Assembly (NCBI GenBank): GCA_938084565.1
Contig: CALKEU010000003.1
Span: forward strand, 50,001-114,000
Reading direction: 5' to 3'
DNA from: Candidatus Kapaibacterium sp.
GTDB lineage: Bacteria; Bacteroidota; Ignavibacteria; Kapaibacteriales; HRBIN21
Length of the DNA: 64,000 bases
Position 1 is the first letter of the stretch. Each line of letters begins with the position of its first letter. Position numbers and translations under genes: made by a program. This document shows positions 47,879 through 48,608 of the stretch, piece after piece. The notes beneath the pieces were generated by a model. It made no database searches. It was not told the origin of the DNA and saw only the letters and a program-made list of their open reading frames with translations.

Positions 47879-48358
47879 TCATCGGATGGGAATCGTGGGG
47901 GATTCAACGTGCGTGGACAGTACCAGACTCGTCAGCGTTCGGCGGACGCCTGGCCAGCGTTGGATGTCTGAGAGGAGCTGCTCGAGCGCAGAAGTGTCGC
48001 GAGTAACTACCTTGAGCACGTGCGATGGTTCACCGGTAATAGCATGGCACTCGAGAATTTCGGGCCGCCGCTTACAGCGAGCGAGGAATTCTGAGTAGTG
48101 GACGCTGGACTCTACGAATACGAACACAAAGGCGGTAATGTCATAGCCGAACGCTTTCGGGTTGAGCTTCGTAAAGTAGCCTTCGATGACACCATGCTCT
48201 TCAAGCTTGCGAAGATGTTCTCGCACAGCGGGCACAGATAAGCCAACTTGGCGAGCAAGCTCTCGGAGAGAAAGGCGAGCATTCCGCTGAAGGAGAGCGC
48301 ACAGATGGCGGTCGACTTCCTTTATTTCCGAAACTTTGACCACGCCTGAGCTGTACAT
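47879..48358 (-). CDS. Lrp/AsnC-family transcriptional regulator
   Basis: 159 residues. An N-terminal winged helix-turn-helix (EVDRHLCALLQRNARLSLRELARQVGLSVPAVREHLRKLEEHGVIEGY) is followed by an RAM/AsnC ligand domain (AFVFVFVESSVHYSEF...ILECHAITGEPSHVLKVVTRDTSALEQLL). It sits directly upstream of glnN and may respond to an amino acid. The Met at 48358 is preferred over 48379 because a -7 element lies at 48377-48383, between the two. Confidence 0.92.
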   Translation of the reverse strand: MYSSGVVKVSEIKEVDRHLCALLQRNARLSLRELARQVGLSVPAVREHLRKLEEHGVIEGYFTKLNPKAFGYDITAFVFVFVESSVHYSEFLARCKRRPEILECHAITGEPSHVLKVVTRDTSALEQLLSDIQRWPGVRRTLTSLVLSTHVESPTIPIR

Positions 48359-48376
48359 GTGGAAACTTTCGCACCG

Positions 48377-48383
48377 CAAATTA
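48377..48383 (-). promoter_or_regulatory. -7 element for lrp-glnN
   Basis: Minus strand reads TAATTTG followed by C, ending 18 bp upstream of the lrp ATG at 48358. It is one T short of TANNTTTG, like the element before the XRE-cupin gene. TTTG occurs 12 bp upstream, which is closer than the usual spacing. Confidence 0.4.
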
Positions 48384-48450: not shown

Positions 48451-48488
48451 CATAAATAAAGCCGGCACCCCCTGCAGAGGTGCCAGCT
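48451..48488 (-). terminator. intrinsic terminator of the candidate small RNA
   Basis: Minus strand: AGCTGGCACC pairs with GGTGCCGGCT around a TCTGCAGGG loop (10 bp with one G-T pair), then TTATTTAT. Stem positions are 48488-48479 and 48469-48460. The loop is complementary to CCCTGCAGA further downstream (48436-48445), so an H-type pseudoknot could form. Confidence 0.65.
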
Positions 48489-48550
48489 GCTACTGGGGTG
48501 GGGAAAGGTGGGAACCTTGAGAGGAGCTACCCTCGACAGTGCGAAGCGTC
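48451..48550 (-). ncRNA. candidate small RNA of about 100 nt
   Basis: Bounded by its own promoter (48557-48587) and intrinsic terminator (48451-48488), with no open frame. The transcript can fold into short hairpins before the terminator: GAGG/CCTC around 48535-48520, AAGGT-TCCC-ACCTT around 48518-48505 and CCAG/CTGG around 48496-48483. It does not contain the conserved cores of 4.5S, 6S, tmRNA or RNase P RNA that I can recognise. An alternative is a leader of lrp-glnN with an attenuator, but lrp has its own -7 element after the terminator. Confidence 0.5.
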
Positions 48551-48556
48551 CGGGTG

Positions 48557-48587
48557 CAAAACTAGAGCGAGGAGCTAAGGGAAACAA
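48557..48587 (-). promoter_or_regulatory. FCB-type promoter of the candidate small RNA
   Basis: Minus strand has TTG (48587-48585), a 20-bp spacer and TAGTTTTG (48564-48557), matching both the -33 and the -7 (TANNTTTG) elements of the primary sigma factor known in Bacteroides/Flavobacterium. This is the most complete promoter in the window. Confidence 0.6.
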
Positions 48588-48608
48588 GGTGGGATTTTAC
48601 GAGCGGCG

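Follow-up and report, generated by a model that had tools for sequence, protein, structure and literature searches.

A candidate small RNA gene upstream of lrp in Candidatus Kapaibacterium and its probable pairing with a structured RNA conserved in the order

Results

Position and anatomy of the sRNA1 gene

The window, i.e. the whole stretch of 64,000 nucleotides (64 kb) analysed here, is part of contig C3 of a 1.87-Mb genome (G000). On its minus strand, between polA (PF00476) and a gene for an Lrp/AsnC regulator that is followed by a type III glutamine synthetase gene, lies a candidate small RNA gene, referred to below as sRNA1. It starts approximately 130 nt past the polA stop and ends approximately 73 nt ahead of the lrp open frame as called. 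The latter (window 47879-48379, minus strand) was called from a TTG, but its homology to relatives sets in only after some 12-18 residues. Its true start is more probably a GTG near 48343, and the gap between sRNA1 and lrp would then be longer. The features of the locus, together with those of a second RNA encoded outside the window (R2), are as follows.

48588..48603, minus strand: conserved block directly 5' of the -33 element, CGTAAAATCCCACC (consensus CGYAAAATSCCCYC), from the alignment of five upstream regions
48557..48587, minus strand: Bacteroidota-type promoter, with the -33 TTG at 48585-48587, a 20-nt spacer and the -7 element TAGTTTTG at 48557-48564
48451..48556, minus strand: sRNA1 body, ~105 nt (placed by covariance model at 48452-48556)
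48521..48534, minus strand: motif A, GAGGGTAGCTCCTC (GGGGTACTCCC in relatives), a small hairpin; its complement in R2 of relatives is GGGAGUACCCC
48497..48514, minus strand: motif B, TTCCCACCTTTCCCCACC, C-rich, with 17 of 18 pairs to R2 GGUGGUGAAAGGUGGGAA
48451..48488, minus strand: intrinsic terminator, a 10-bp stem AGCTGGCACC-loop-GGTGCCGGCT, then TTTATTTAT
G000 contig C5:168751-168842 (L114:1501-1592), minus strand, outside the window: R2, ~90 nt, structured RNA, one copy per genome

An earlier note on this DNA had described a promoter, TTG-N20-TAGTTTTG, followed by a body without an open frame and by a 10-bp stem terminator with a T-rich tail. Promoter and terminator had been placed correctly, at 48587-48557 and 48488-48451 of the minus strand, respectively. 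The promoter is of the kind described for Bacteroidota (consensus TAnnTTTG / TTTG; PMC7366714), and the pattern TTG-N20-TANNTTTG has its sole match on both strands of the 64 kb at this position, against 0.06 matches expected from shuffled sequences. The block at 48588..48603 is possibly an UP element or a regulator site. Direct reading of the minus strand revealed no ATG, GTG or TTG between promoter and terminator, in agreement with the lack of an open frame. The transcript would begin near 48551 and end near 48452 within the T-rich tail; the covariance model that placed sRNA1 at 48452-48556 includes the window copy itself. Comparison of sRNA1 with Rfam 15 gave no family match even at E<=10, which bears out the statement of the note that the RNA resembles none of the common housekeeping RNAs.

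The several short hairpins that the note had seen in the body were overstated. The predicted fold (-36.3 kcal/mol) was no better than that of shuffled sequence (z = -0.88; 42 of 200 shuffles equally good), and most of its energy is supplied by the terminator. In a 1-kb stretch, one terminator-like site was seen and 1.0 was expected by chance. Given an ordinary fold and a terminator of a kind that occurs about once per kb, the promoter is the sole unusual part when the locus is judged from a single sequence; sRNA1 rises above chance because it is conserved in relatives.

Conservation of sRNA1 within the genus

sRNA1 was found in five of six species of the genus, in each case upstream of lrp and on the same strand. 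Three of them (G001, G004 and G005) have retained the polA-lrp gap with sRNA1 inside it, and in these three the sRNA1 terminator is set apart from lrp by approximately 500 nt and by a distinct TAAGTTTG-type promoter. In G003 polA is located elsewhere, yet two tandem copies of sRNA1 are present:

G003 contig C2:300515-300619 and 300774-300885, minus strand: tandem sRNA1 copies upstream of lrp (locus L036)

The sixth species, G002, has lrp without sRNA1, behind a gap of 198 bp. The five aligned upstream regions have in common first the CGYAAAATSCCCYC block, then, in four cases, a TTG at N20-N21 (N21 in G001, G004 and G005), and then YARTTTTG and GCACCCGG; the -7 element of the relatives reads CAATTTTG, CAGTTTTG or CAATTTCG at the same position. 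Of the body, GGGGUACUCCC and CCCACCUUUCCCCACC are the conserved stretches, and the remainder drifts; motif A is least well kept in the window species, where it is degenerate. The earlier note had proposed that the polA-lrp gap of relatives be aligned for covarying base pairs. In this alignment the letters of the terminator stem differ from species to species while pairing is largely kept, four of nine aligned pairs having changed on both sides.

A profile built from the five copies of the relatives, leaving out the window copy, had the window sRNA1 as its sole significant match in an nhmmer search (E=1.7e-6; next match 1.8), with match coordinates 48539-48454 (minus strand) and an envelope of 48452-48556. 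Beyond the genus, BLAST of sRNA1 returned just matches of 16-28 nt at chance level, and the sRNA1 model, when run across the order, matched, apart from the genus, chiefly R2 on its reverse strand and sites attributable to chance; it also picked up a partner RNA in genus g4 (see below). Own promoter, intrinsic terminator, absence of an open frame and conservation were all found for sRNA1. With the joint conservation of promoter, motifs and terminator in five species, the tandem copies of G003 and the leave-one-out match, the proposal of the note that the locus is a small-RNA gene in its own right, with a promoter of the Bacteroidota type and a terminator, is well supported. A link to nitrogen control through lrp-glnN, to which the position of sRNA1 points, would be speculative: sRNA1 does remain ahead of lrp, but with another promoter in between in G001, G004 and G005.

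R2, a structured RNA conserved in the order

R2 is preceded by its own TAATTTTG promoter and ends in a stem followed by U-rich sequence. In the genus it is nearly invariant (mean identity 93%) and lies ahead of an amidohydrolase gene, with ffh as the divergent neighbour in five of the six genomes; it is present in G002 though sRNA1 is absent there. A covariance model built from the genus matched at least 42 of the order's 123 genomes; these belong to families f1, f2, f4, f5 and f7-f10, and no f3 genome is among them. Among 395 genomes from across the phylum, R2 matches were confined to members of the order. A scan of 84,980 species yielded 35 R2 stretches under the titles Kapabacteria, Ignavibacteria/Chlorobiota, Bacteroidota or unnamed bacterium, and R2 was not found in a plasmid collection. 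Against Rfam 15, R2 matched no family, even at relaxed thresholds; tRNA matches nearby belonged to neighbouring genes, tRNA genes being close to R2 at several of its loci.

Covariation was measured on 26 distinct sequences from seven families. In the main stem, 10 of 13 pairs had changed on both sides and 99.4% of cells were paired; overall pairing reached 97.6%, compared to 39-54% in slid controls. By comparative sequence analysis, R2 is a previously undescribed structured RNA that much of the order Candidatus Kapabacteria has retained.

The gene 3' of R2 encodes an amidohydrolase in f1, f2 and f9, while in f4, f7, f8 and f10 other genes or opposite strands are found. A role as an amidohydrolase leader was therefore rejected as a general rule, and since the neighbours differ among families, R2 would be a stand-alone RNA. 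We also considered a peptide gene. An open frame, FVVVVK(G), is seen in several families, but it is not kept across families: it lacks an ATG in most of them, as it does in the genome of G002, and in f9 the insertion of a single base shifts it, which makes a peptide unlikely. A type I toxin-antitoxin pair was rejected because this frame is not kept and because sRNA1 has no start codon ahead of its terminator. In several f2 genomes (L128, L133, L134 and L136), R2 ends in CUCA(C/U)AU without a proper U-run, so that the 3' end may there come from processing, not from intrinsic termination.

Complementarity of sRNA1 and R2

When the six genomes were searched for motif B (CCCACCTTTCMCCACC, allowing at most one mismatch), sites were limited to sRNA1 and, as the reverse complement, R2; a reversed-pattern control gave 0 matches. 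The inverted motif occurred at one other place per genome in all six genomes, inside R2. As an ungapped segment aligned with the R2 of its own species, motif B forms 15 of 16 pairs with R2 GGUGGUGAAAGGUGGG, and 17 of 18 pairs in the window species. Motif A is complementary to the GGGGAGU(A/G)CC / GGGAGURCCCC stretch of R2, and the two complementary segments stand in antiparallel order. Since motif A of the window species is degenerate, only the motif B site is strong there, and no strong second segment was found in that species. Throughout the genus, motif B has retained a single C-U mismatch to R2 and has not been perfected. In the second copy of G003, the letters of motif B have diverged and the complementarity to R2 covers a longer stretch: CCACCACGAAGGAG is complementary to R2 CUCCUUUGUGGUGG at 13 of 14 positions, with one mismatch, and GGGUACUCCCCUUC is complementary to R2 at 14 of 14. 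Extended and evolutionarily conserved complementarity to another small RNA, a feature of RosA-type sponge RNAs, was found for sRNA1 and R2.

RNAduplex energies did not discriminate between real and shuffled sequences, because unlimited bulges are allowed, and ungapped segments were used instead. The two-segment score was reached or exceeded in 0 to 4 of 1000 dinucleotide shuffles for each of 11 sRNA1-R2 pairs, a set that includes the partner RNAs of g4 described below.

A partner RNA in genus g4

In g4, which belongs to another family, an RNA with a different 5' part and at a different locus displays two-site complementarity to its own R2. It carries GGGGCACUCCCC(GG) and UCACCACCAC, then a strong terminator, and its flanks differ from those of sRNA1; comparison with Rfam 15, again with relaxed thresholds, gave no match. 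The first of these partners was detected as a weak match of the sRNA1 model (G008, E=0.035), and the remaining ones were found with a pattern designed from the two motifs. Their two-site score is for this reason partly selected, while the terminator and a conserved upstream block are not. In all five genomes in which the pattern was found, the partner matches the R2 of its own genus. An R2 with CCGGGGAG goes with a partner that has CUCCCCGG, and an R2 with UCGGGGAG with a partner that has CUCCCCAG or CUCCCUAG. The g4 loci (L204-L207 and L219) share a highly conserved block, CGCGTTTCATGGTACCCTCACACAGGCGCAGCTTCC...GGAAGTTGCGC, approximately 90 nt upstream of GGGGCACTCCCC; this block forms an extra hairpin ahead of the R2-complementary motifs. 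The promoter of the g4 partner is unlike TAnnTTTG.

With two complementary-site patterns and one model, partners were found in the genus and in g4 only. The sites in R2 are conserved also in f2, f5 and f7-f10, where the patterns found no partner, and R2 must therefore have another role there. The longer complementarity of the G003 copy and the separate partner in g4 argue for RNA pairing over a shared DNA site.

Discussion

Proposed function of sRNA1 and R2

The computations show how the gene is laid out, that it is conserved, that it is complementary to R2, and that such complementarity is found again in a second genus. As to function, we hold with moderate confidence that sRNA1 is a genuine, independently transcribed small RNA that acts by base pairing with R2. 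The two RNAs probably pair, one tuning the other. An sRNA1 of ~105 nt would be transcribed from its own promoter; motif A would pair with R2 GGGGAGU(A/G)CC and motif B with R2 GGUGGUGAAAGGUGGG, in antiparallel order. As this pairing would cover the two most conserved stretches of R2, the likeliest outcome would be that one RNA titrates the other or, by destabilising it, leads to its decay, as in known sponge/sRNA pairs. Either direction is conceivable, i.e. sRNA1 may sponge R2, or the G-rich R2 may sponge the C-rich sRNA1. Several observations count against this reading: G002 has R2 without sRNA1, motif A of the window species is degenerate, the mismatch in motif B is retained, and the R2 sites are conserved in families where the patterns found no partner. 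More tentatively, R2 might be a regulator RNA throughout the order, with antisense partners that, independently in two or more families and at loci unrelated to each other, arose or were remodelled and converged on the same two sites; we regard this wider picture as possible, though not as the probable one.

Among other explanations, sRNA1 could be a C-rich, mRNA-targeting sRNA whose CCACCUUUCCCCACC and CUCCC bind G-rich ribosome-binding sites in the manner of RoxS/RsaE, R2 being its decoy or sponge. Motif B is indeed rich in C and, in the majority of predicted folds, mostly unpaired, and Bacillus has a stand-alone G-rich sponge, RosA, that acts on the C-rich RoxS and FsrA (PMC8216469). The far wider conservation of R2 compared to sRNA1 is, however, unexpected for a sponge of sRNA1 alone, and we consider this explanation doubtful. 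That sRNA1 is an attenuator leader of lrp, started at TAGTTTTG and conditionally released past the terminator, would account for its position upstream of lrp on the same strand in all five carriers, even in G003 with polA elsewhere. The ~500 nt and the TAAGTTTG-type promoter that intervene in G001, G004 and G005, the G002 lrp without sRNA1, and an alignment that predicted no alternative antiterminator pairing make such a leader unlikely.

Alternatively, the conserved complementary motifs might represent a DNA site that is bound by a protein and occurs in both orientations. In one such scenario they would be double-stranded regulator sites, e.g. for MraZ (GTGGG-N5-GTGGG), lying in opposite orientations at two sRNA genes and having no meaning as RNA. 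In the genus, GTGGGAGAAAGTGGG is found upstream of mraZ with an equal 10-bp spacing, and motif B reads GTGGGGAAAGGTGGGA on its reverse strand. GTGGG direct repeats with 10-bp spacing are present in the genus with another spacer, but R2 of most other families reads GTGGTGAAAGGTGAG and the g4 partner TCACCACCACC, and the repeat is kept in neither. As the second complementary site and the longer complementarity of the G003 duplicate would also be left unexplained, regulator sites of this type appear quite improbable. We give least credence to a chance promoter next to a polA terminator with no separate gene. In its favour are the ordinary fold and the frequency of terminator-like sites expected in this DNA, about one per kb; yet promoter, motifs and terminator are conserved jointly in five species within an otherwise diverged gap, sRNA1 is duplicated apart from polA in G003, and the leave-one-out profile recovers the window copy at E=1.7e-6. 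As a separate observation, a conserved two-repeat MraZ-type box (GTGGGAGAAAGTGGG) precedes mraZ in each of the five genomes inspected for it (G000-G004; L101-L105).

Significance and comparison with known systems

The analysis yields two RNA families new to Rfam, one of which (R2) occurs in eight families of the order with covarying stems, and a specific candidate RNA-RNA pair. In the library of papers that was searched, none contains both 'Kapabacteria' and 'small RNA'. If the proposed pairing is true, a deep branch of the Bacteroidota has RNA antagonists of small RNAs, and different partner RNAs target the same two R2 sites in two families.

Within the phylum, intergenic sRNAs of Bacteroides such as GibS (PMC7366714) are alike in being stand-alone genes with TAnnTTTG-type promoters; the likeness is one of description, and these sRNAs are low-GC; no Rfam family matches sRNA1, R2 or the g4 partner. 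Bacteroides has yielded no obvious homologue of either Hfq or ProQ (PMC7366714). CJnc190/CJnc180 of Campylobacter jejuni (PMC8687705) similarly combines an sRNA targeting a G-rich site with a complementary RNA antagonist, but these two are encoded on opposite strands of one locus, whereas sRNA1 and R2 lie on different contigs and share only short complementary stretches. The closest working model for sRNA1 and R2 is RosA/RoxS (and FsrA) of Bacillus subtilis (PMC8216469), with separate genes, G-rich versus C-rich stretches and two sites. Likened by description, the two systems differ in that the G-rich RNA of Bacillus is the stand-alone sponge, whereas the G-rich RNA of the pair described here is the widely conserved and strongly structured one. 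As the G-rich RosA is the sponge, the roles within sRNA1-R2 may be reversed.
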